A DNA stretch of 64,000 nt from the NCBI RefSeq assembly GCF_004305975.1, contig NZ_BHZI01000001.1:1-64000 (forward strand), given 5' to 3'. The position numbers and the translations under genes are program-made. Source of the DNA: Streptomyces otsuchiensis (GTDB lineage Bacteria > Actinomycetota > Actinomycetes > Streptomycetales > Streptomycetaceae). Within the stretch, counting starts at the first letter, position 1. Every line of letters begins with the position of its first letter. The notes under the pieces are model-generated. The model had not been told where the DNA came from and made no database searches. It worked only from the letters and a program-made list of their open reading frames with translations. Positions 31,604-43,621 of the stretch are shown here, piece after piece.

Positions 31604-32302
31604 GTGACCGACACCGACGCCTCGTCCCAGGAGCGCGATCCCACTCCACCTCCCCAGGAGGAACCGGAGCAGGGGTCGCGCTCCTGGCGCGTGTGGGCGA
31701 CGGCATTCATCGCGCCGGTCGTCGGCTTCGCCCTCACCAGCGCCTTCGTGATGCAGGCCTTTCTGATCCCCAGCGGATCGATGGAGGAGACGCTGCACGT
31801 GGGTGACCGGGTCCTGGTCAACAAGCTCGCTTATCGCTTTGGCGACATTGGGCGTGGCGATATCGTGGTCTTCGACGGAACGGGCTCGTTCGTCCACGAC
31901 GCCTCGGAACCGGGCCCCGTGGCCCGCGTGTTGCGGGCGGCGGGTGGTGCGGTCGGGCTGACGCCGTCCGGGGACACCGACTACATCAAGCGGGTGATCG
32001 GGATCGGCGGGGACCGGGTCGTGTGCTGCGACGCCGAGGGCATGATCACCGTCAACGGGAAGCAGCTGGAGGAGCCCTACCTGTATCCGGGCGACGAACC
32101 CTCAGCCACACCGTTCGACATCGAGGTGCCCGCAGGACGGCTGTGGGTTCTCGGCGACCACCGGTCCGACTCCAGCGACTCCCGTGACCATCTGGGCTCG
32201 CCCGGAGGCGGCACCGTGGCCGAGGGCCGGGTCATCGGACGTGCCGAAGCGGTCGTCTGGCCGCCCTCCCGCACCGGCGGGCTACGGGCGGACCGTGGGT
32301 AG
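31604..32302 (+). CDS. lepB: Type I signal peptidase (first of four)
   Basis: Signal peptidase I cuts signal peptides from exported proteins. The 232-residue enzyme has an N-terminal membrane helix (about residues 28-55) and the catalytic Ser-59 in IPSGSM. Lys-129 (DYIKRVIGIGGD) is the general base, and the LWVLGDHRSDSSDSRDHLG box is present. It corresponds to the SipW-Z cluster of streptomycetes. TACCAT at 31592-31597 is 6 bases before the GTG, suggesting a leaderless start although rplS is only 36 bases away. It overlaps the next peptidase by 8 bases. Confidence 0.95.
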   Translation: MTDTDASSQERDPTPPPQEEPEQGSRSWRVWATAFIAPVVGFALTSAFVMQAFLIPSGSMEETLHVGDRVLVNKLAYRFGDIGRGDIVVFDGTGSFVHDASEPGPVARVLRAAGGAVGLTPSGDTDYIKRVIGIGGDRVVCCDAEGMITVNGKQLEEPYLYPGDEPSATPFDIEVPAGRLWVLGDHRSDSSDSRDHLGSPGGGTVAEGRVIGRAEAVVWPPSRTGGLRADRG

Positions 32303-33107
32303 TCGGGGAAGGCCCCGTGGTGCCCCGTCCCCCGGCGCCGCCGAGCCCCATGGCGAGGCATCACCCGGGACCCCGAACCGCCTCGGCGGGGGGCGCGCCG
32401 CCCGACGACGGGCGGCCAAGCGGATCCGCCGGCGCCGTCGGCTGCGGACCACGCGCGAGATACCGATGCTGATAGGCATCGCTCTCGGTATCGCGTTGCT
32501 GATCAAGACCTTTCTGGTGCAGGCGTTCGTCATCCCCTCAGGTTCGATGGAGCCGACCATCCAGATCGACGACCGCGTGCTGGTCAACAAGTTCACGCCG
32601 TGGCTCGGCTGGGAACCCTCGCGCGGGGACGTGGTGGTGTTCAAGGACCCCGGCGGCTGGCTGGAGACCGACGCCGGCATGCCCCAGAGCGCTGATCCGC
32701 CGGTGATCGGGCAGGTCAAGACCGCCCTGAGCTGGGTCGGGCTGATGCCCAAGGAGGACGAGGACCTGATCAAGCGCGTCATCGGTGTGGGTGGCGACAC
32801 CGTGGTCTGCTGTGACGAGGAGGGTCTGGTCACGGTCAACGGTGTGCCCGTCGAGGAGCCTTACGTCCACCCGGGCAACGAGCCGTCCACGATCCCGTTC
32901 GACGTCACCGTGCCGCCCGGCCGGGTGTTCGTCATGGGGGACCATCGCGGCAACTCCGCCGATTCGCGGTTCCATCTGAACGAGCCCGGTGAGGGCACCA
33001 TCCCCGTCGCCTCGGTGGTCGGCCGGGCGAGTGTGATCGCGTGGCCGTATGCTCACTGGGGCCGACTCGACGGCGCGGACGCCTTCGAGGCGGTTCCCGA
33101 GCCGTAG
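32295..33107 (+). CDS. lepB: Type I signal peptidase (second of four)
   Basis: The 270-residue paralogue has a longer cytoplasmic N-terminus with a strongly basic stretch (RRAAKRIRRRRRLRTTRE) before the membrane helix (about residues 58-78), catalytic Ser-84 in IPSGSM, Lys-160 in DLIKRVIGVGGD, and VFVMGDHRGNSADSRFH. The GTG at 32295 overlaps the end of the previous gene, implying coupled translation. Confidence 0.94.
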   Translation: MGSRGRPRGAPSPGAAEPHGEASPGTPNRLGGGRAARRRAAKRIRRRRRLRTTREIPMLIGIALGIALLIKTFLVQAFVIPSGSMEPTIQIDDRVLVNKFTPWLGWEPSRGDVVVFKDPGGWLETDAGMPQSADPPVIGQVKTALSWVGLMPKEDEDLIKRVIGVGGDTVVCCDEEGLVTVNGVPVEEPYVHPGNEPSTIPFDVTVPPGRVFVMGDHRGNSADSRFHLNEPGEGTIPVASVVGRASVIAWPYAHWGRLDGADAFEAVPEP

Positions 33108-33304
33108 CCCGCCCGGTCGCGTTGTTCGCGTCGCGGCACGGGGTGCGTGGCGCCCGCCCCGTGCGGGTAGGCGCTGCCAGGCGGGTCGAGGCGAAAGAAG
33201 TGACAGAACTCCCGATCCCTGCGGAACTCCCGCTCGTTATCGGAGTGGAGCTGTGAGCCTGTTCCGCCCCTCGGGCAGGCTGCGAAGTGGTGTGAGGAGT
33301 CGAT

Positions 33305-34312
33305 GTGGGGGATGTGGCAGTGGGAGCCCGGTCCGGAGCGTCCGAGGACCCGGAGAGGCGCCCTTCACCGGGATACTCCGGGGCCGCCGGCGACCGTCCT
33401 GCGGACGCGCCCGGTGGTTACGACCCCGGAGCCGGTGACGCCGACGGTTCGGTGAGCCCGGACAGTGGGAGCGCGGGTGGCCACGCCGACGACGGCGTCC
33501 CCGGTGATGGCGAGGACGGCGGTGACCGGGGCCGGGGGCACAAGGGGACGAAGAACCGTTCGTTCTGGAAGGAACTGCCGATCCTCATCGGTGTCGCGCT
33601 CGTCCTGGCTCTTGTGATCAAGACGTTCCTGGTCCAGGCATTCTCGATCCCCTCGGACTCCATGCAGAACACCCTGCAGCGCGGTGACCGGGTCCTGGTC
33701 GACAAGCTGACGCCCTGGTTCGGCGCCACCCCCGACCGCGGTGAAGTGATCGTCTTCCGTGACCCGGGCGGCTGGCTCCCCCCGCCTTCCAACGACGGCG
33801 GCGCCTGGGCGAACGTGCAGGAGGGCCTGAGCTTCATCGGTCTGATGCCGTCCGCGGAAGATCAGAACCTGATCAAGCGGGTCATCGCCGTCGGGGGCGA
33901 CACCGTGGAGTGTCAGGTGGGCGGCCTTGTCACGGTCAACGGCAACGAGGTGGACGAGACCGACTTCATCTACCCCGGGAACACGGCCTGTGACGACCGG
34001 GCCTTCGGCCCGATCGACATCCCCGAGGGCCGGCTCTGGGTCATGGGCGACCACCGCCAGGACTCGCAGGACTCGCGCTTCCACATGAGCGGCCCCGGAG
34101 GCGGCACCGTCTCCGAGGAAGAGGTCGTCGGTCGCGCCGTCGTCGTCGCCTGGCCGGTGAACCGCTGGTCGGTGCTCTCCGTACCGGAGGGCTACTCCTC
34201 GCTCGACAACGCGGCGGCGCTGGCGGTGCCCGGTGCGCTCGGACTGGCCGGCGCGGTGCCGCTGGTCTGGTGGCGACGTCGGCTGCTTCTCGACCGCGGT
34301 CGCGACGACTGA
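33305..34312 (+). CDS. lepB: Type I signal peptidase (third of four)
   Basis: The 335-residue paralogue has an 85-residue Gly/Asp/Pro-rich cytoplasmic N-terminus and a membrane helix (about 94-113). Catalytic Ser-119 is in IPSDSM and Lys-191 in NLIKRVIAVGGD. A second hydrophobic helix near the C-terminus ends in WWRRR, so both ends are anchored. GTG 33305 follows GAGGAG by 5 bases. A 197-base gap separates it from the second peptidase, so it may have its own promoter. Confidence 0.94.
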   Translation: MGDVAVGARSGASEDPERRPSPGYSGAAGDRPADAPGGYDPGAGDADGSVSPDSGSAGGHADDGVPGDGEDGGDRGRGHKGTKNRSFWKELPILIGVALVLALVIKTFLVQAFSIPSDSMQNTLQRGDRVLVDKLTPWFGATPDRGEVIVFRDPGGWLPPPSNDGGAWANVQEGLSFIGLMPSAEDQNLIKRVIAVGGDTVECQVGGLVTVNGNEVDETDFIYPGNTACDDRAFGPIDIPEGRLWVMGDHRQDSQDSRFHMSGPGGGTVSEEEVVGRAVVVAWPVNRWSVLSVPEGYSSLDNAAALAVPGALGLAGAVPLVWWRRRLLLDRGRDD

Positions 34313-34318
34313 ACTTCG

Positions 34319-34363
34319 GCGGGGCGGCGTGCGGACCTGACGGGTCACCGCACGCCGCCCCGC
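34319..34363 (+). terminator. 16-bp hairpin after the third signal peptidase
   Basis: Bases 34319-34334 pair perfectly with 34348-34363 around a 13-base loop, 7 bases after the stop codon. Confidence 0.8.
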
Positions 34364-34547
34364 GCCACGTCCGGGGTCACGCCCGGGGCGTGCGGGCGCG
34401 CCACCGCAGGGGGCGCCCACCGGGACCCTCGCCTTCCTCAGACCACCGCTCCACGCGGCGCGGGCGACCACAAAGCGTTCGCCGGGCGCGACGACGACCT
34501 CACTGGGTAGGGTCACGTTCCGGACCATGACCCAGATGGAGGACGAG

Positions 34548-35261
34548 ATGAGCGCTGCGCCGCGCACCCGGGGCCGTCTCGGCCGGGTCCTTTCCAACGC
34601 CGTCGTGGCCCTGGGATGTGTGCTCTTCCTCGGTGGGTTCGTGCTGGCCGCGTTCCTCTACCAGCCCTATCTGGTACCGACCGACTCGATGGCACCCACC
34701 GTCGCCGCCGACGATCGCGTGGTCGCCCAGCGCATTGACGGCCGTGAGGTGCACCGGGGCGACATCGTGGTGTTCCGGGACGACGCATGGAGCGAACTGC
34801 CCATGGTCAAGCGAGTCGTCGGGGTGGGCGGCGACAGCGTCACCTGTTGCGACGAGGACGGTCTGCTCCGGGTCAACGACGTTCCGATCGACGAGTCTTA
34901 TCGGGACAGGGGAGTGCCTGCCTCGCGCCACGGCTTCGAAGCCGTCGTGCCCGACGGCGAGCTCTTTCTGCTGGGCGACGAGCGCCTGGACTCCGTCGAC
35001 TCCCGGGCCCTGCTCGCGGACGGGCGCAGCGGAACGGTCGCCGAAGACGCCGTCGTCGCCCGTGTCGAGGCGATCGCCTGGCCTCCGAGCCGACTCGGTC
35101 CGGTGGCGCGCCCGGGCGAGTTCGGCGATCTGCCCGGCGGCGTGTCCAGCCCCGGGCCACTGAATCTGTTGGTGATCTCCACCGTGACCGGCGCGGTGCT
35201 CATCCTCGGTGGTGCCGCGATCGGACCGCTCACAGCCCGTTCCTCGCGACGGAAGGCGTAA
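34548..35261 (+). CDS. lepB: Type I signal peptidase (fourth of four)
   Basis: The most divergent of the four, with 237 residues from this start. It has an N-terminal helix with VALGCVLFLGGFVLAAFLY, the catalytic Ser in VPTDSM, the Lys in PMVKRVVGVGGD, the LFLLGDERLDSVDSRAL box, and a C-terminal helix. ATG 34548 follows GGAGGA and is preferred; ATG 34527 would add 7 residues and lies close behind TAGGGT (34508-34513), a likely -10. The GDH box reads GDE rather than GDH. Confidence 0.92.
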   Translation: MSAAPRTRGRLGRVLSNAVVALGCVLFLGGFVLAAFLYQPYLVPTDSMAPTVAADDRVVAQRIDGREVHRGDIVVFRDDAWSELPMVKRVVGVGGDSVTCCDEDGLLRVNDVPIDESYRDRGVPASRHGFEAVVPDGELFLLGDERLDSVDSRALLADGRSGTVAEDAVVARVEAIAWPPSRLGPVARPGEFGDLPGGVSSPGPLNLLVISTVTGAVLILGGAAIGPLTARSSRRKA

Positions 35262-35371: not shown

Positions 35372-35716
35372 ATGAGCGCCGAAGATCTCGAGAAGTACGA
35401 GACCGAGATGGAGCTGAAGCTCTATCGGGAGTACCGGGATGTGGTCGGACTCTTCACCTACGTGATCGAGACCGATCGGCGCTTCTACCTCACCAACGAC
35501 TACGAGATGCAGGTGCACTCGGTCCAGGGCGAGGTGTTCTTCGAGGTCTCGATGGCCGATGCCTGGGTGTGGGACATGTACCGGCCCGCGCGCTTCGTCA
35601 AGCAGGTGCGAGTGCTGACCTTCAAGGACGTCAACATCGAGGAGCTCAACCGGAACGAGCTCGATCTGACGCAGAACAACGGCTTCAGCGCGGGCAGTGA
35701 CGGAGGTGCGGGCTGA
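35372..35716 (+). CDS. DUF2469 family conserved actinobacterial protein
   Basis: A 114-residue acidic protein beginning MSAEDLEKYETEMELKLYREYRDVVGLFTYVIETDRRFYL, highly conserved in actinobacteria and of unknown function. It usually sits after lepB-rnhB and before yraN-comM-dprA. Here no rnhB precedes it and yraN does not follow; see the 41-bp element and the inverted block. A GAAAGGGA ribosome site precedes the ATG. Confidence 0.93.
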   Translation: MSAEDLEKYETEMELKLYREYRDVVGLFTYVIETDRRFYLTNDYEMQVHSVQGEVFFEVSMADAWVWDMYRPARFVKQVRVLTFKDVNIEELNRNELDLTQNNGFSAGSDGGAG

Positions 35717-35750
35717 CCCGCCTCGCTCCTTTCCACCCGAAAGAGTGACG

Positions 35751-35791
35751 GAGTTATCCACAGGTCCTAAGTTTTCCACCAAGATCCACAC
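35751..35791 (+). promoter_or_regulatory. DnaA-box-type 41-bp element, left copy
   Basis: The element reads GAGTTATCCACAGG, six variable bases, then GTTTTCCACCAAGATCCACA. It includes TTATCCACA (35754-35762), a perfect DnaA box, plus TTTTCCACC (35772-35780) and GATCCACA (35783-35790), which resemble weaker boxes in the same direction. It lies 30 bases before the M23-like gene. An inverted copy (33 of 41 bases identical) is at 42129-42169, upstream of yraN. Confidence 0.75.
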
Positions 35792-35820
35792 GGGGGCGGC
35801 CGACGTACGAGTCTGCCCGT

Positions 35821-37005
35821 ATGCACATCTCCCCGCCTGACTTCTCCCGGCGAGCCATCCGCCGGACCCTGACCACCGCTACCGCCCTGGTGACCTCCAC
35901 GCTCGTCCTCGGCTCGTTGTGGCTGCCGCTGGCCGCCGCCCTCGCGCGAGAGGACGGCACCGGCGCGGCGGACGAGCACGCGGTCCCGAACATCCGGTCC
36001 GGCCCTGCACCGAGCGGGCGCTCAGAACCGCTCGACGGGACCGAAGGGCCGGAGGGGGTCTACGGGCCGGTCGAGCCGCAGGCTCAGCCGGCCCGTCACC
36101 CCGGCGCGGGCGTCAACCTGACTCCCTACGCCGACACCGCCCACGCTGCGGACGACCGCCCCGCACACCACGCAACGTCACCGCGATCGGTGCCGTCGGC
36201 CGGTCCGGGAGAGCCGGGCGCCGAGCGGTCCGAACCCGATACGCCCGAGGCGCCCGGACCGACCGGACCGACCGGACCGACCGGACAGGAAGATCAGCCG
36301 CTACCGGAACTCGATCCCTTCGGTACGGGCGACACGGGAGCACAGGGTTCGGCGCTGCCCACAGACGCCGACTGGCCCCTCGGGCCCCGCCCGCAGGTCG
36401 TGCGCCGCTGGGATCCGCCGCCCGCCCCCTGGGCGCCCGGCCACCGCGGCGTGGATCTCGCGGCGAGCCCCGGCACACCGGTCCACGCGGCGCTGGACGG
36501 TCACGTCAGCTTCGCCGGCATGGTGGCCGGGCGCGGTGTCGTCGTGATCGCCATTGACGGGACCGGGCTGCGCATGACACATGAACCGGTGATCCCGTCG
36601 GTGGCGGCGGGGCAACGGGTGAGTCGCGGCGAGCCCGTCGGGGTCGTCTCGGACGGTCCGTACCACTGCCAGGACTCATGCCTGCACTGGGGCCTGCTGG
36701 ACGGCCGTACCTACCTCGATCCCCTCTCGATCGTCGGCCGGGATCCTTCCAGGCTGCTGCCCGTCACCGGTGTGCCGCTACCCCCGCCGGAGCACCACCG
36801 GGCGCGCGGGCGGAGCGGTGCCGTTCCGGGGCGGCGGTCGTCCGGCCGCAGCAGGGGCAGTGCCTCAGGAGGCAGGGGTGGGGCGACGCGACCGGGGCCG
36901 ACGGCGCGAACGGTGGCGGGCGACTCCGTGCCGCGCACGCCCGGCGGCGTCAGGCCGCGGAGCGGGCGCCGTCCAGCACGAGCCGGACGGCGCGCTCGGC
37001 GATGA
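35821..37005 (+). CDS. Secreted M23-family (LytM-like) protein with incomplete active site
   Basis: The 394-residue product has a signal peptide (about residues 1-42, ending LAAALA), a Pro/Glu/Thr-rich linker with GPTGPTGPTG repeats, and an M23 domain at about residues 205-305. The first zinc ligands are present (HRGVD), but the usual His-x-His is SCLHWGL, with Cys at the first position. The protein may therefore be a regulator or binder rather than an active peptidoglycan endopeptidase. This variant is common in the actinobacterial homologue that normally sits divergent from rpsB. The last 80 residues are Arg/Gly/Ser-rich and the 3' end overlaps tetR by 56 bases, so the true C-terminus may be unusual. 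Confidence 0.88.
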   Translation: MHISPPDFSRRAIRRTLTTATALVTSTLVLGSLWLPLAAALAREDGTGAADEHAVPNIRSGPAPSGRSEPLDGTEGPEGVYGPVEPQAQPARHPGAGVNLTPYADTAHAADDRPAHHATSPRSVPSAGPGEPGAERSEPDTPEAPGPTGPTGPTGQEDQPLPELDPFGTGDTGAQGSALPTDADWPLGPRPQVVRRWDPPPAPWAPGHRGVDLAASPGTPVHAALDGHVSFAGMVAGRGVVVIAIDGTGLRMTHEPVIPSVAAGQRVSRGEPVGVVSDGPYHCQDSCLHWGLLDGRTYLDPLSIVGRDPSRLLPVTGVPLPPPEHHRARGRSGAVPGRRSSGRSRGSASGGRGGATRPGPTARTVAGDSVPRTPGGVRPRSGRRPARAGRRARR

Positions 37006-37540
37006 CCTCGCGGTCCTCGACGCCCAGACCGGCCCGCCGCACCGCGGCGTCCACCACCCCCTGCAGCAGCACCGCCGTCAGGCGTGGTTCGGACTGCCCC
37101 AGATCGGCGAGCACTCGTACCACCAGGTCGATCAGGCTGCCGTGCGCCGCTCGAATCTGCTCGCGGGCGGCGGCGTCCAGCTCGCTCGCCGCGATGGCGA
37201 CCACCGCCTGATGCCGCAGGTCTCCCGCAAGCGCCAGCTGCGTGCGGACGTAGGCCTCGAGCTGTCGCTCTGGTTCGCCGGCGGAGGCGACGGCGGCCTC
37301 CACTTCGGCGGCCCATGCCGGGAAGTCCGTGGCGCAGAGCGCCTCCACCACCGCACCGCGTGAACGGAAGTACTCGTAGACCGAAGACCGGGCCAGCCCG
37401 GTGCGTTCGGCCAGCGCGGGGAAGGTCAACGCCTTGGTGCCGCCGGAGGCGAGCAGAGCGCGCGCGGCCTCGAGCAGGGAGTCCCGCTGCTGTCTGCGAT
37501 GCTCGGCCACGGAGGCCGCCCGGATCCTCGGCACACCCAC
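36950..37540 (-). CDS. TetR-family transcriptional regulator
   Basis: The 196-residue protein has an N-terminal helix-turn-helix (RDSLLEAARALLASGGTKALTFPALAERTGLARSSVYEYFRSRGAVVEAL) typical of TetR repressors and a helical ligand domain. It lies 85 bases downstream of whiG, as the last gene of the yraN-comM-dprA-whiG-tetR series. Its ligand and targets are unknown. It converges on the M23-like gene with overlapping 3' ends. Confidence 0.92.
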   Translation of the reverse strand: MGVPRIRAASVAEHRRQQRDSLLEAARALLASGGTKALTFPALAERTGLARSSVYEYFRSRGAVVEALCATDFPAWAAEVEAAVASAGEPERQLEAYVRTQLALAGDLRHQAVVAIAASELDAAAREQIRAAHGSLIDLVVRVLADLGQSEPRLTAVLLQGVVDAAVRRAGLGVEDREVIAERAVRLVLDGARSAA

Positions 37541-37625
37541 AGACTAGAACGTGCGGACTCCGGAAGCACCCCTCCCCGGGCATCGGGGTCGCCGCAGGCC
37601 GCGCTGCGGTCCCCGTCGTGGGTGC

Positions 37626-38468
37626 TCAGCGGCGTACATCGCTCAACTTCGCCCGCAGCTGGAGCACCGACTTGCTGTGGATCTGACTGACCCGGCTCTC
37701 GGTCACTCCGAGCACCTGCCCGATTTCTGCCAGTGTGAGCCCCTCGTAGTAGTAGAGCGTCACCACGGTCTTCTCCCGGTGCGGAAGCGTGTTGATCGCC
37801 CGTGCCAGCAGACGGCGGAGCTCACGGTCCTCCGCGACCTCGACCGGGTCGTCCGCGGAGGTGTCCTCCAGCGTGTCCATCAGGCTGAGGTCGCCCTCGC
37901 CGCCGACGTGGAGCATCTCCTCCAGCGCCACCATGTTGGCAAGCGACAACTGACCGAAAAGGCTGTGGAGTTCCTCGACGGCGATGCCCATCTCCCGCGC
38001 GACCTCCGCCTCGCTGGGAGTGCGCCGCAGCGCCGCCTCCAGAGTCGCGTAGGCGCGCTCGGCCGCACGCGCCTTCTGCCGCACCGAACGGGGAATCCAG
38101 TCAAGCGCCCGCAGTTCGTCGATCATGGCGCCACGGATGCGCGTGATGGCGTATGTCTCGAACTTGATGGAGCGGTCCGGGTCGAACTTCTCGATGGCGT
38201 CGATCAGTCCGAAGATCCCCGAGGAGACGAAGTCGGCCTGTTCGACGTTGGGCGGAAGCCCGACGCTGACCCGCCCCGCCACGTACTTGACCAGCGGCGA
38301 GTAGTGCAGGATCAGCTGTTCGCGCAGGCGCTCGTCGCCTGTCGACTTGTAGGTGTGCCACAGCTCTTCGAGCGTGGTGGGCGAGCGCCGGGGCGCGGCA
38401 CTCTCCGGCGCGGCCGCGGCCGGTGCTTCCGGAGCCGGTGTGGGGGGCCCGGGGGTGCGCTGTGGCAT
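37626..38468 (-). CDS. whiG: RNA polymerase sigma factor WhiG (FliA family)
   Basis: WhiG is the sigma factor that commits Streptomyces aerial hyphae to sporulation. The 280-residue protein has region 2 ([79 protein letters not shown]), region 3, and region 4 with the helix-turn-helix [23 protein letters not shown]. The first 30 residues are a Pro/Ala-rich extension. It supports a sporulating actinomycete. The 154-base gap to dprA may hold its own promoter on the minus strand; TAGAAC close to the start is a weak candidate. Confidence 0.97.
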
Positions 38469-38622
38469 GCGTCGTCTGAAACCGTTCTACGGTGGTCTGT
38501 GCGAATGGTGCCGGTTCGAGTGGAACCTTGGTGAGCGTAGCGTGACATTGACGTCGCGTAGCGCATATCGCCCCTGAACGCACATGCGCAGATACGTTCC
38601 GCCCACCGCACCGTGGTGTTAC

Positions 38623-39927
38623 TTACCTATCCACGCCTGGGGTGCGCCGGGGTGCGGGGGAGAGTGCCTCGCGCCGCAGAGCCCATGTCTCGCCGGTTCG
38701 TTCGACGAATCCCAGCGCGCGGAGCTCCAACAGCCGTGCAAGAGCAGCCAACTCACTGACACAGGCGCCGGCCGCGATCTCCCGAACGGCGGCCTCGCCA
38801 CGAACCGGCACGGCCTCCAGTACTGTGGCCGACGCCTCGTCGAGTAGATCCCGCGGGCGTGCCACCGTCGGGGCCGGTTCCGCCAGCTCGCCCATCGCGC
38901 CCACCAGTTCGATCACCTCATCGGCCCGTGCCACCAAAACCGCCTCCGCGCGCAGTAGTTGATGTACGCCCTCGGACTGTGCGGAGAAGACGGAACCCGG
39001 CACGCCCATCAGGTGGCGGCCAAGTCGCGCCGCGTGTCGCGCGGTCGCGAGCGCACCGCTGCGCGGGGCGGCCTCGACGACGACGGTGCCCCGGGTGAGC
39101 GCGGCGAGGACGCGATTGCGCTGAAGGAAGCGGTGCCGGGTCGGGTGTTCGCCGGGAGGCAGCTCGCTCACCACCAGACCGCACTGACGGATCCTCCCCA
39201 GCAACTCCCGGTGACCCGCCGGGTATCCGTTGTCGACACCGCAGGCCAGGACGGCGACGGTCGGGCCACCGGCACGCAGCGCCCCCTGGTGCGCCGCGCC
39301 GTCGATCCCGTACGCCGCGCCCGAGACCACGGTCCATCCACGGTCGGCGAGCGAACGAGCGAGCTCGGCGGTCACATAGCCTCCGTAGTCCGTGCACGCA
39401 CGCGAACCCACCACCGCCACCGAACGCAGCGCGAGCAGACGGAGCGAGGCCTCGCCGCGGACCCACAGCCCCGTCGGGCGCGCGGCCCCCAGGTCGTCGA
39501 GCTGACTCGGCCACTCCGCGTCACCGGGGCACACGAACCGTGCGCCGCAGGCCGCGGCGCGCCCGAGGTCCGCCGCCGGGTCGGCACGGTGGGCGCGCAG
39601 CCGCATACCCGCCCAGCGCTGCGGCCCGAAGGGCCGGTCCCGACCGTCGTCGCGCACGGTGTTCCAGGCTGTGACCGGTCCCACTTCGGCGAGCCAGCGC
39701 CCCATCACCGCGTCGCCCGGCTCGCCGACGCGTGCCAGAGCCACGCGTGCCAGTCGTTCCTCCTCCGCCATCGGCGCCTCGGCCGGACCCGGAGGCCGGT
39801 AGAGGCCCCGGGCCGGGCCGCCTTCGGATGCTGTCCCTGTCGCAGGTGCCGTGCCGGGGGTCGGCACTGTCCCCTGGGCCGGTGTCGTCCCGGCGGCCGG
39901 GGCCGCGTGGGCGCTCGTGGTCGTCAT
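38623..39927 (-). CDS. dprA: DNA-processing protein DprA
   Basis: DprA binds single-stranded DNA and loads RecA, known from natural transformation but present in non-competent bacteria too. The Rossmann-fold core (about residues 170-370) shows VAVVGSRACTDYGGYVTAELARSLADRGWTVVSGAAYGIDGAAHQGAL, GVDNGYP and RNRVLAALTRGTVVVEAAPRSGAL. A C-terminal winged-helix domain follows. The N-terminus has a Thr/Gly/Pro/Ala-repeat extension of about 50 residues; the internal ATG at 39771 (MAEEERLARVALARVG) is where most homologues begin. Confidence 0.94.
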   Translation of the reverse strand: MTTTSAHAAPAAGTTPAQGTVPTPGTAPATGTASEGGPARGLYRPPGPAEAPMAEEERLARVALARVGEPGDAVMGRWLAEVGPVTAWNTVRDDGRDRPFGPQRWAGMRLRAHRADPAADLGRAAACGARFVCPGDAEWPSQLDDLGAARPTGLWVRGEASLRLLALRSVAVVGSRACTDYGGYVTAELARSLADRGWTVVSGAAYGIDGAAHQGALRAGGPTVAVLACGVDNGYPAGHRELLGRIRQCGLVVSELPPGEHPTRHRFLQRNRVLAALTRGTVVVEAAPRSGALATARHAARLGRHLMGVPGSVFSAQSEGVHQLLRAEAVLVARADEVIELVGAMGELAEPAPTVARPRDLLDEASATVLEAVPVRGEAAVREIAAGACVSELAALARLLELRALGFVERTGETWALRREALSPAPRRTPGVDR

Positions 39928-40090
39928 GGGAGCCGCCTCTCTCCTTGTCTCGTCACTTCATGCCAGGCAGTGGACCTGGCCCCGGATCCGCCCCGGACGC
40001 CGGGGCCCCGGGTGGACTTCTCCGCCTTACGGGAAGGCCGTCCACCAGTCGTGAGGCGGACCGTCCGCCGGCCGGGCGGGCGATCGCCGG

Positions 40091-41689
40091 TCACGGGAGG
40101 CTCCCCACCAGCCCGGCGCCGCGCGCCACTCCCGTGCGCAGCGCGAGCGCGGCATCGACATCGGCGGCCGTCGGACGGTCGTGACCCGCGAGGTCCGCGA
40201 CCGTCCACGCCACGCGCAGTACGCGGTCCAGGCCGCGAGCCGTGAGCAGACCCCGGTCCATGTCGCGTTCCGCGCGTACCAGCGCGCCCGGCGCCGGTGC
40301 CCATCGGCCGCGCAGCTCGTGCCCGGGTACCGCGCTGTTGACCCGCCACGGAAACCCCTCGTAGCGCGCCGCAGCGCGTTCCCGCGCGGCGGCGACCCGG
40401 CCGGCGACCGTCGCCGTGGACTCGCTCTCCCCGGCGGCGAGCAGCTCCGCCCGGCTCACCGGCTCCACCGGCACCCGCAGATCGACGCGGTCCAGCAACG
40501 GTCCGGACAGCCGCGCGCGATAGCGCCGTACCGCGCTGGGAGGACACTCGCACCCACCTCCGGGCGCGCCGTGCCTGCCGCACGGACAGGGGTTGGCCGC
40601 GAGGACCAGCAGCAGGCGGGCGGGCAGCCGCATGACGCCCGCCGACCGGGCGATCACGACCTGGCCCGACTCGAGCGGCTGCCGGAGTGCGTCCAGCGCT
40701 CGGCTGCTCATCTCGGCCGCCTCGTCGATGAAGAGCACACCGTGATGGGCGAGGGACACGGCTCCTGGGCGGGGTGTGCCCGTGCCGCCGCCCACCAGCG
40801 CGGCCATCGACGCGGAGTGGTGCGGGGCGCAGTAGGGCGGGCGTTCCACCAGTGGCCGCCCGGCGGGGAGAGTGCCGCTGACCGAGTGGACCGCGGTCGC
40901 CTCCAGCGCCTCCTGGCGTGTCAGTGGTGGCAGCAGCCCCGGCAGCCGTTCCGCGAGCATGGTCTTGCCGGCGCCCGGGGTCCCTTTGAGAAAGAGATGG
41001 TGGCGCCCCGCCGCCGAGACCTCCAGCGCGCGGCGTGCCGAACGCTGTCCGGCGACCTCCGCCAGATCCGGCGTGTGGTCGCCACCGGTCACGCCGTCGC
41101 AGAGCCCGGCCGCGGCGCCCGGAGGCAGCACCCCCGAGAGGTCCGGCCCCTCCGGAGGTGGCTCATCGGGCACGGGCGTGCCGTTCAAAACGGCCACGAG
41201 CTGTCGCAGGCTCCGCACCCCGAGGACCGCGACACCCGGAACCAGAGCGGCCTCGGCCGCGGTGGACTCGGCCACCACGACCTGTCGGTACCCCGCCTCC
41301 GCGGCTGCGAGCACGGCCGGGAGAACACCGCGCACCGGACGGATGCGGCCGTCGAGACCCAGCTCGCCGATCATCACCAGATCGGCGACGGCCGAGGGCT
41401 CCACCTGCTCGGCGGCCGCGAGCGTCGCGCAGGCGACGGCCAGGTCGAAACCGCTGCCGGCCTTCGGCAGTGAAGCAGGACTCAGTGCCACGGTCAGTTT
41501 CTTCTGTGGCCAGGGCACCCCGGAGTTGATGACAGCGGAACGGACACGGTCCCGGCTCTCGCTCAGCGACTTGTCCACCAGCCCGACCAGGGTGAAAGCG
41601 GCGACCCCCGGTTCGAGGTCGGCCTGCACCTCGACCACGACGCCCTCGACCCCGGTCACCGCGACGGAGCACGTCCGCGCGAACGGCAT
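40091..41689 (-). CDS. comM: ComM/YifB family magnesium-chelatase-like ATPase
   Basis: ComM-type AAA+ proteins are hexameric helicases that promote branch migration during DNA uptake. The 532-residue protein has the N-terminal Lon-like domain ([22 protein letters not shown]...LPKAGSGFDLAVA), Walker A GTPGAGKTML, Walker B GVLFIDEAAEM, LVLAANPCPCGRHG, and the C-terminal Mg-chelatase lid. Its ATG overlaps the yraN stop (TGATG at 41687-41691). A GTG one codon upstream is also possible. Confidence 0.95.
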   Translation of the reverse strand: MPFARTCSVAVTGVEGVVVEVQADLEPGVAAFTLVGLVDKSLSESRDRVRSAVINSGVPWPQKKLTVALSPASLPKAGSGFDLAVACATLAAAEQVEPSAVADLVMIGELGLDGRIRPVRGVLPAVLAAAEAGYRQVVVAESTAAEAALVPGVAVLGVRSLRQLVAVLNGTPVPDEPPPEGPDLSGVLPPGAAAGLCDGVTGGDHTPDLAEVAGQRSARRALEVSAAGRHHLFLKGTPGAGKTMLAERLPGLLPPLTRQEALEATAVHSVSGTLPAGRPLVERPPYCAPHHSASMAALVGGGTGTPRPGAVSLAHHGVLFIDEAAEMSSRALDALRQPLESGQVVIARSAGVMRLPARLLLVLAANPCPCGRHGAPGGGCECPPSAVRRYRARLSGPLLDRVDLRVPVEPVSRAELLAAGESESTATVAGRVAAARERAAARYEGFPWRVNSAVPGHELRGRWAPAPGALVRAERDMDRGLLTARGLDRVLRVAWTVADLAGHDRPTAADVDAALALRTGVARGAGLVGSLP

Positions 41690-42084
41690 CACGCCACCCC
41701 CCTGGCGTGCTCGATGAGGGGAGCGCCTCGGCGCGGCAGCGTCACACCCACCAGATCGATCCGGACCCCGCCCGCCGGGAGATCCCGGTGTTCGGGCAGC
41801 CAGCGATCGGCGAGCCAACGTTCCGACAGCTCCCGCAGCCGCGACAGCTGCCGCGGGCCCAGCCCGGCCATCGGATGCTGGTATCCACCGGCTCTCCGCG
41901 TCTTCACCTCGCACACGATGACGGTGACTCCGGTGGCCTCCGGGCCCGGATCCTCGCGGGCCACGATGTCGATCTCTCCCGCGCGGCACCGCCAGTTGCG
42001 GTCCATGATCGTCATCCCCGCATCGCCCAGGCTTCGAGCCGCGAGTCGTTCGCCGTACCGTCCGAGCGCTCCTCGTTCGTTCAT
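41689..42084 (-). CDS. yraN: YraN/UPF0102 family endonuclease-like protein
   Basis: A 131-residue protein with the restriction-endonuclease-like core of UPF0102: [13 protein letters not shown], the GEIDIVARE catalytic-type motif and VCEVKTRR. It is usually the first gene of yraN-comM-dprA and probably processes DNA; its activity is unproven in most species. A strong GGAGGTGA site lies before the ATG. It is now divergent from rpsB, with the right copy of the 41-bp element 45 bases upstream. Confidence 0.94.
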
Positions 42085-42128
42085 GGCGCCTCACCTCCGT
42101 GACCGACAGTGACGCAGTCCGGCGGACG

Positions 42129-42169
42129 CTGTGGATCTTGGTGGACAACCGGCTCCCTGTGGATAACTC
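42129..42169 (-). promoter_or_regulatory. DnaA-box-type 41-bp element, right copy
   Basis: Read on the minus strand: GAGTTATCCACAGG, six variable bases, then GTTGTCCACCAAGATCCACA. It has TTATCCACA and TTGTCCACC, the latter one base from the Streptomyces DnaA-box consensus TTGTCCACA. It is the inverted counterpart of 35751-35791, with the same length and spacing; all six spacer bases differ. Confidence 0.75.
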
Positions 42170-42682
42170 GGCCACCCTCAGGAGTGAGGCGAGCTGTCCC
42201 GCTGACGGCGCGGCCCCCCGCGTGCGCCCTGTCGGCAGAGCGCTGGCGGAGCGCCGGAGGAGCACCCCAACCACGCCCTGCAGCGCGGCTGGTGCGCGCC
42301 GGGCAAGCGCCCGCGCGCCGACCGGAGCGACACCCCCTCACCTGCTCCTCTGCCAGGCCCGGTGAGGCGCCAGGTGTCACGCGTGCACCCTGGAGTGCGT
42401 ACCTCGGCGCCCGCGCCGCCACCGCACGCCTGCCCTGCCCATCGGTGGTCTCCGGGCCGGTCGCCCGAGGCCTTCCCGGTCCCGTACACTTTCCCTGGCG
42501 ATCCGGGTCCCGGATCGACCTCGCATGCCCCGCCACCGGCCCGGCGACACCGGACCGGAGGCCGCGTTTCTCGGTCCGCGGGCGCCCTCAACAGCGCTCA
42601 CGGTAGGACGCGCAGGGGCGTCAGGAGCGTCGCCCGTCCCGGGTGGCGCTGACAACCGAGTCACACCCCAAGGAGAACGGCC
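42170..42682. other. rpsB promoter and leader region
   Basis: The 513 bases before rpsB contain TACACT (42485-42490), a good -10. Just after the expected start is a palindromic hairpin at 42499-42517 (9-bp arms around one base), at the very 5' end of the transcript. The leader is about 185 bases, long enough for translational autoregulation by S2, which is known in other bacteria but unproven here. AAGGAG at 42670-42675 is the rpsB ribosome site. The 42200-42450 part shows nothing recognisable. Confidence 0.45.
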
Positions 42683-43621
42683 ATGGCCGTCGTCACGATG
42701 CGGGAGCTGCTGGAGAGCGGCGTCCACTTCGGGCACCAGACCCGTCGCTGGAACCCGAAGATGAAGCGCTTCATCTTCACCGAGCGCAACGGCATCTACA
42801 TCATCGACCTGCTCCAGTCGCTGTCGTACATCGACCGCGCCTACGAGTTCGTCAAGGAGACCGTCGCCCACGGCGGTGCCGTGATGTTCGTCGGTACCAA
42901 GAAGCAGGCCCAGCAGACCATCGCCGAGCAGGCGACCCGGGTCGGCATGCCCTACGTGAACCAGCGCTGGCTGGGCGGCATGCTCACCAACTTCTCGACC
43001 GTCCACAAGCGTCTGCAGCGGCTCAAGGAGCTGGAGCAGATCGACTTCGAGGACGTCGCCGCCTCCGGTCTGACCAAGAAGGAGCTCCTGGTCCTCTCCC
43101 GCGAGAAGGCCAAGCTGGAGAAGACCCTCGGTGGTATCCGCGACATGCAGAAGGTGCCCAGCGCCGTCTGGATCGTGGACACCAAGAAGGAGCACATCGC
43201 GGTCGGTGAGGCCCGGAAGCTCAACATCCCGGTCGTCGCGATCCTCGACACCAACTGCGACCCCGACGAGGTCGACTACAAGATCCCCGGCAACGACGAC
43301 GCGATCCGCTCCGTCACGCTGCTCACCCGTGTGATCGCCGACGCCGTGGCCGAGGGCCTCATCGCCCGCTCCGGCGCCGCGACCGCGGCCAAGGAGGGCG
43401 ACAAGCCCGCCGCTGAGCCGCTGCCCGAGTGGGAGCGGGAGCTTCTCGAGGGTGCCGAGGCGAAGGCCGAGTCCGCCCCCGCCGAGGGTGGCGAGGAGAC
43501 CGCGGCCGCCGAGGCCCCCGCGACGGAGACCCCCGTCGCCGAGGCGCCTGCCGCTGAGGCTCCGGCCGCCGAGGCGCCCGCCGCCGACGCCGCGACCGAG
43601 GCCCCCGCCGAGCAGGGCTGA
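42683..43621 (+). CDS. rpsB: 30S ribosomal protein S2
   Basis: The first 240 residues are the conserved S2 domain ([32 protein letters not shown]...[19 protein letters not shown]). A tail of about 70 residues is built of Ala/Glu/Pro near-repeats ([15 protein letters not shown]). The ATG is 7 bases after AAGGAG. It leads the rpsB-tsf unit. Confidence 0.97.

Follow-up and report, generated by a model that had tools for sequence, protein, structure and literature searches.

The window analysed here (64,000 nucleotides of Streptomyces otsuchiensis; contig NZ_BHZI01000001.1 of assembly GCF_004305975.1, positions 1 to 64,000) contains a 6.4-kb block, holding whiG, an M23 peptidase gene and the DNA-processing genes yraN, comM and dprA, that lies turned around between two inverted copies of a short element with DnaA-box-like repeats. 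What is this element, why does it stand at both ends of the block, and did the block turn by recombination between the two copies, as the original prediction proposed? Our analysis suggests that the element is quite probably the operator of an undescribed competence-type regulon, and that the block flanked by two of its copies flipped once in the lineage of the window.

The element consists of three direct DnaA-box-like 9-mers (TTDTCCACA) preceded by a conserved GGGTGACGGAG stretch, and comes in two forms that diverge after box2: a long one, with 20 bp from box2 to box3, and a short one, with 10 bp. The repeat first described as a 41-bp DnaA-box element was thus recovered, but the element is wider, owing to the conserved stretch 5' of the boxes, and its boxes are only DnaA-box-like. 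A strict pattern (GGTGN7TNTCCACAN9TNNTCCAC) gave 99 matches in 36 of 37 Streptomyces genomes and none in 24 genomes of other families. Across the family Streptomycetaceae 59 of 91 genomes had it, representing 15 of 17 genera, and the reversed pattern had no match in 61 genomes or in the 91 family genomes.

Eighty-eight of the 99 strict matches fall at six recurring sites; wherever one of these sites was mapped, the element faces the gene named as lying 3' of it. Forty-two lie at the whiG block (41 assigned by being within 16 kb of whiG, and one at rpsB on a contig edge), 11 between degV and comEA, 18 between a GTPase gene and ssb, 16 between mtnP and cpaB-mscL, and one between a HAD gene and ssd-tadA; at this last site box1 reads TATTCACA in 28 of 30 copies, which puts most of them beyond the reach of the strict pattern. 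In the own genome (a draft of 6.15 Mb in 752 contigs, inside which the window lies), the matches with no more than one mismatch number six, and they stand at yraN-comM-dprA, the M23 gene, degV (comEA, at a contig end), ssb, cpaB/rcpC-mscL and ssd-tadA. When eight genomes were scanned with at most one mismatch, 41 of 49 matches were at these sites: 6/6 in the own genome, 5/6 in Streptomyces sp. NBRC 109706, and 6/7, 6/6, 5/5, 5/6, 4/6 and 4/7 in the others, counting for genome G012 a copy of the M23-side type beside rpsB, without M23. One match (G061:C23:11279) and five two-mismatch matches of the own genome carry no site assignment. The placement of the element at the ends of the block stands as originally described, but the element is not specific to the block and recurs at other competence-type loci, which that description had missed. 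At loci L186 and L192, in two genomes, the element stands at another common, non-competence site, with the same gene clusters on both sides.

The link between the block and the distant sites was examined with matrices trained at one set of sites and applied to another. Loci for degV and ssd were picked by protein search, ignoring the element (30 of 33 and 30 of 32 matches usable), and 500 bp downstream of degV or upstream of ssd was scanned with a forward matrix trained only on 128 yraN and M23 copies. This found the element in 29 of 30 degV-comEA gaps (scores 27.7-54.2) and upstream of all 30 ssd genes of ssd-tadA operons (scores 20.9-55.4), the top score among the controls (other strand, coding sequence, best of 20 shuffles) being 3.3. 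The one degV-comEA miss, G031, has its element 1.4 kb from degV. Conversely, a reverse matrix trained on 59 degV and ssd copies recovered 73 of 80 yraN and 62 of 62 M23 copies, all above every reverse-strand score. The yraN regions were those of the window and 79 of the 80 named Streptomyces loci described below (L014 was dropped for a gap of more than 3 kb), and the M23 regions those of the window and 61 named loci, 18 of the 80 lacking M23 or rpsB in the retrieved stretch or in the gap test. Five of the seven yraN misses were regions trimmed too short, and boxes are seen at these loci, while L026 and L044 seem to be without the element. Some genomes probably duplicate named strains; the training sites and the tested sites are nevertheless different.

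The genes at these sites were identified against curated cut-offs. In the own genome Ssd (TIGR03815), TadA (TIGR03819), two T2SSF proteins, MscL and DegV all score above them, and SSB does so in L116. In NBRC 109706, ComEA is above cut-off for HHH_3 and SLBB and below it for TIGR01259, and ComEC is above cut-off for PF03772. ComEC of the own genome is intact, with no stops (contig C324), its comEA-comEC genes starting at the contig end, and the element after degV lies at the end of contig C213. Since that contig ends just after the element, the connection to comEA in this genome is drawn from other genomes.

Six gene sets thus follow the element: yraN-comM-dprA, the M23 peptidase gene, comEA-comEC, an ssb paralogue, cpaB/rcpC-mscL and the Flp-pilus genes ssd(tadZ)-tadA-tadB/C. 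They would supply the parts of a DNA-uptake machine, namely a pilus, a receptor and a channel for DNA, protection of single strands, processing of the DNA and local opening of the wall. Because the six sets together form such parts, we propose one joint regulator, which would act on the direct TTDTCCACA repeats and switch all six on together, so that they would be co-expressed for the uptake of DNA. Control of competence genes by one shared operator is a hallmark of competence regulons elsewhere, as with the ComK box in Bacillus, the com-box in Streptococcus and CRP-S in Haemophilus and Vibrio. The arrangement here is alike in having one element before comEA-comEC, dprA, ssb and pilus or secretion-ATPase genes, oriented to each; in sequence, the element is presumably unlike all three. 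Within the same phylum, Micrococcus luteus uses the same machine parts, a tad pilus and ComEA/EC (PMC4322843, PMC8467076): its transformation requires tad genes and ComEC, it is reported to have no homologues of the ComK cascade (PMC4322843), and the regulation of its com genes was still under search in PMC8467076. In contrast to the situation described here, the accessible text of these two papers names no shared operator, and the term 'DnaA' is absent from PMC8467076.

Several observations weigh against this reading. Eleven of the 99 strict matches lie off the six sites (two upstream of parA and nine elsewhere), as do eight of the 49 matches in the eight genomes (three at parA, five elsewhere or unplaced). 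A copy-like box pair lies approximately 284-296 bp before a ParA match near the putative oriC in L164, L177, L248, L252 and L255 (genomes G013, G014, G005, G012 and G036); it may represent DnaA boxes or a further regulon member. The element also stands before an amino-acid permease gene in three genomes (L119/L201, L167, L173); in L119 a gene for a ROK regulator lies upstream of it. The ssb site, for all its 18 strict matches, was found by the pattern and not by the anchored test, and the same is true of the cpaB site. In the own genome SSB and RcpC/CpaB fall below their cut-offs (25.1 versus 26 and 24.7 versus 28.8, respectively). NBRC 109706 keeps the element at its ssb site (L234), where no ssb was detected before the next gene, and its M23 copy is weak, with two mismatches. 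One genus of the family, g27, has the strict pattern in only two of 17 genomes. Finally, the family member Kitasatospora viridifaciens is reported to resist transformation when walled, and deletion of its comEA/EC left DNA uptake by L-forms unaffected (PMC9500057).

The likeness of the boxes to DnaA boxes raises the question of what binds them. DnaA itself could do so, the boxes being ordinary DnaA boxes that couple these genes (and parA) to the state of replication or titrate DnaA in the manner of datA clusters. The high-affinity DnaA box of S. coelicolor, listed in Table 1 of PMC4285127 as TTGTCCACA, resembles TTDTCCACA, and in the same species initiation is restrained by clusters of DnaA boxes in the vicinity of oriC (PMC4585315). 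These clusters, like the element, hold several boxes similar to TTGTCCACA. The helical spacing of the three direct boxes, the copy-like pair upstream of parA in five genomes and the TATTCACA boxes of the ssd copies (28/30) speak for DnaA as well. The last of these fits TTATNCACA, the form known from E. coli. Against this, the element differs from the clusters near oriC in its set of three direct boxes at fixed spacing, its position at gene starts, the GGGTGACGGAG stretch in front and an avoidance of C at position 3. In 75 distinct elements this position of box1 is A in 24, G in 29, T in 22 and C in none, whereas 49 oriC-like boxes from five genomes (a sample seeded with TTGTCCACA, which favours G, and with oriC located by box density) have G in 40, C in nine and neither A nor T. 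Titration would, moreover, explain neither the strict choice of competence genes nor the fixed orientation to them. Because the position-3 preferences differ, we regard binding by DnaA as unlikely and that by another regulator as more probable.

A shared operator could also be real and serve sporulation, through septation and chromosome segregation, instead of DNA uptake; ssd, ssb, parA, M23 and whiG would all point in that direction. Ssd is named as septum site-determining (TIGR03815), copies stand at parA, and SsbB of S. coelicolor has reportedly been linked to segregation during sporulation. Set against this are the comEA (29/30) and ssd-tadA (30/30) sites, which carry the element; comEA-comEC, tadA and dprA are not known to act in sporulation, and we judge this explanation rather improbable. 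The possibility that the element is no more than an intrinsic terminator for the gene before it was rejected as the whole explanation: the copies at rpsB/M23 and at HAD/ssd sit between divergent genes, and the palindrome is weak, since at least six of eight pairs form in 23/53 yraN, 13/62 M23, 7/29 comEA, 8/17 ssb, 3/18 cpaB and 10/30 ssd copies, compared to 4-12% of shuffles. Inspection by eye found no fixed -35/-10 promoter within the element, since the part beyond box2 is 10 bp longer in the long form than in the short one.

Returning to the competence-type regulon, the broader proposal, which we consider evenly balanced, is that the Streptomycetaceae possess a complete, co-controlled competence programme (Flp pilus, ComEA/EC, SSB, DprA/ComM and a wall peptidase) under one undescribed TTDTCCACA operator, that the likeness to DnaA boxes may link uptake to replication or the state of the chromosome, and that walled Streptomyces would transform under conditions yet to be found. 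Streptomyces is not known for natural DNA uptake or transformation, and its comEA, comEC, dprA and tad genes are not known to have been brought together as one functioning system. A literature search that covered few subscription papers found no description of the element, and as far as that search shows this would be the first operator for competence genes in actinobacteria. A conserved operator before these gene sets would mean that selection maintains their joint control; it offers a handle for finding the regulator and makes natural competence in Streptomyces, and its timing, directly testable with reporters.

How do the two copies relate to the inverted block? The features of the window are as follows.

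35372..35716, + strand: DUF2469 gene, left outer neighbour (PF10611)
35742..35791, + strand: M copy, the element before the M23 gene; one mismatch to the pattern
immediately 5' of box1 of the M copy, + strand: half-site GTGACGGAG
35754-35762, + strand: box1 of the M copy, TTATCCACA
35772-35780, + strand: box2 of the M copy, TTTTCCACC
35782-35790, + strand: box3 of the M copy, AGATCCACA
35821..37005, + strand: M23 peptidase gene, 3' of the M copy (PF01551)
36950..37540, - strand: TetR-family regulator gene, within the inverted block (PF00440)
37626..38468, - strand: whiG sigma factor gene, within the inverted block (NF004935, above cut-off)
38623..39927, - strand: dprA (PF02481)
40091..41692, - strand: comM-type Mg-chelatase/AAA gene (PF01078, PF13541, PF13335)
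41689..42084, - strand: yraN (UPF0102), the first gene 3' of the Y copy (PF02021)
42129..42178, - strand: Y copy, the element before yraN-comM-dprA; no mismatch to the pattern
42158-42166, 42140-42148 and 42130-42138, - strand: box1, box2 and box3 of the Y copy
42480..42520, + strand: conserved start of the rpsB promoter/leader, from alignment with relatives, the promoter being a putative assignment; TACACT at 42485-42490 is likely its -10
42683..43621, + strand: rpsB, right outer neighbour (PF00318)

These results reproduce both the gene content given previously (DUF2469, M23, TetR, WhiG, DprA, ComM, YraN, RpsB) and the two arms, 35751-35791 (+) and 42129-42169 (-), with 33 of 41 bases identical; ungapped extension yields 49 nt at 80% (35742-35790 / 42130-42178). 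As a bare repeat the pair is little above chance, because the best inverted 41-nt pairs in 12 dinucleotide shuffles of the window reach 29-32 of 41, and the window itself has a better pair than the arms, its best at 37/41, in an unrelated hairpin at the left end. We judge the arms to be real because the element is conserved at both sites across relatives. A strong hairpin at positions 1-88, with 39-nt arms that are 92% complementary, is probably a terminator.

To place the inversion, relatives were collected by DUF2469 protein search, the 80 named Streptomyces loci being the best 80 of more than 582. Sixty of these have both ancestral junctions and 19 the DUF2469-yraN junction, and only L023 (Streptomyces sp. 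NBRC 109706) shares the inverted order of the window. Other genera contributed 15 loci; the DUF2469-yraN junction was testable in 12 of these and is ancestral in all 12. M23 alone lies on the rpsB strand in seven of the 15, all of family f3 (L144-L149, L161), and because the M23 gene has turned by itself in one related family the M23-side junction has been rearranged more than once. Gene order therefore bears out that the block is turned around when set against both relatives and outgroups, and comparison of the junctions showed a related element at each of the matching positions in uninverted genomes, the two mutually inverted; with relatives and outgroups uninverted and the element present at their junctions, neither outcome that would have spoken against the inversion was observed. 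In a tree of this locus (nine concatenated proteins, 57 loci with a complete gene set, midpoint-rooted), the window and L023 are grouped as a pair (support 1.0), 0.48 apart. This pairing comes from the tree alone, as NBRC 109706 ranks only seventh by raw identity (0.757; L032 reaches 0.762). Because the only other inverted genome pairs with the window, we read the gene orders as one inversion on the stem of the window and L023, retained since. Other changes at these loci include rpsB-tsf with its own copy of the element approximately 1.16 Mb from the whiG block in G012 (L158, L242), a separate rearrangement ending at the same junction, as well as approximately 5 kb of extra DNA between DUF2469 and yraN in L014 and between dprA and whiG in L066.

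Because two members of the proposed regulon flank whiG and face each other, their operators would form a natural inverted repeat in every uninverted Streptomyces; the intervening block would have flipped once, in an ancestor of the lineage that includes the window, the operators staying with their own genes and the inversion being kept. In uninverted genomes the M copy is found immediately upstream of the conserved promoter region of rpsB, whereas in the window the Y copy is approximately 300 bp away from it, and each operator therefore moved along with its own gene. Chromosomal inversions are known to occur between inverted repeats such as rRNA or IS copies, and here too inverted repeats stand at both ends and the content is preserved, but the repeats are regulatory elements of approximately 41-49 bp, conserved for function and of low mutual identity. 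Over at most 39 bp, the two copies are on average 71% identical in the 59 genomes in which both were scored, with a longest identical run of 9.7 bp on average and 21 bp at most; to judge from these sequences, such identity is short for homologous recombination between the copies. The inversion alone would be of modest interest; its significance lies in operators that act as, or are located at, rearrangement points while each keeps its own gene.

Of the recombination between inverted repeats proposed originally, the inversion and the elements at both junctions hold, while crossing-over at the repeats themselves is made less certain by their shortness and low identity and by the small size of the gaps. 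As the elements fill much of the small intergenic gaps, any viable inversion of the block would end near them, and it is only slightly less than an even prospect that the inversion arose independently of the repeats, its breakpoints falling by chance in two intergenic gaps that also hold elements. The low identity between copies in uninverted genomes agrees with this, as do the shortness of both gaps and the other rearrangements that end here (rpsB-tsf in G012 and the M23 gene turned alone in one other family). Yet a copy of the same element lies at each of the two breakpoints, and both copies in the window are of the short form and have a 16-bp identical stretch in common, a pattern expected from gene conversion or crossing-over. 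The flip may have come about by crossing-over at the elements or close to them. NBRC 109706, with a yraN copy of the short form, has a weak, decayed M23 copy of the long type; because it retains this M-like copy, a single staggered-break inversion is not favoured as the source of the two short-form copies in the window. Inverted repeats flanking whiG could in principle still recombine, which would make the block an invertible switch active in cultures, a notion we hold to be very improbable. The repeats are short and imperfect (33/41), none of the block's six genes encodes a recombinase, both members of a deep sister pair share the orientation, and the copy in NBRC 109706 has decayed. One orientation was seen per genome examined: the assembled sequences did not show the two together in one strain or among close relatives, the inverted order occurring only in the window and its sister. 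The suggestion that the block may still switch was accordingly not upheld; at the level of the lineage the block is inverted and looks fixed.

To the left of the DUF2469 gene, positions 31604-35261 of the window hold four signal peptidase (lepB-like) genes in tandem, with repeated segments (family D1).

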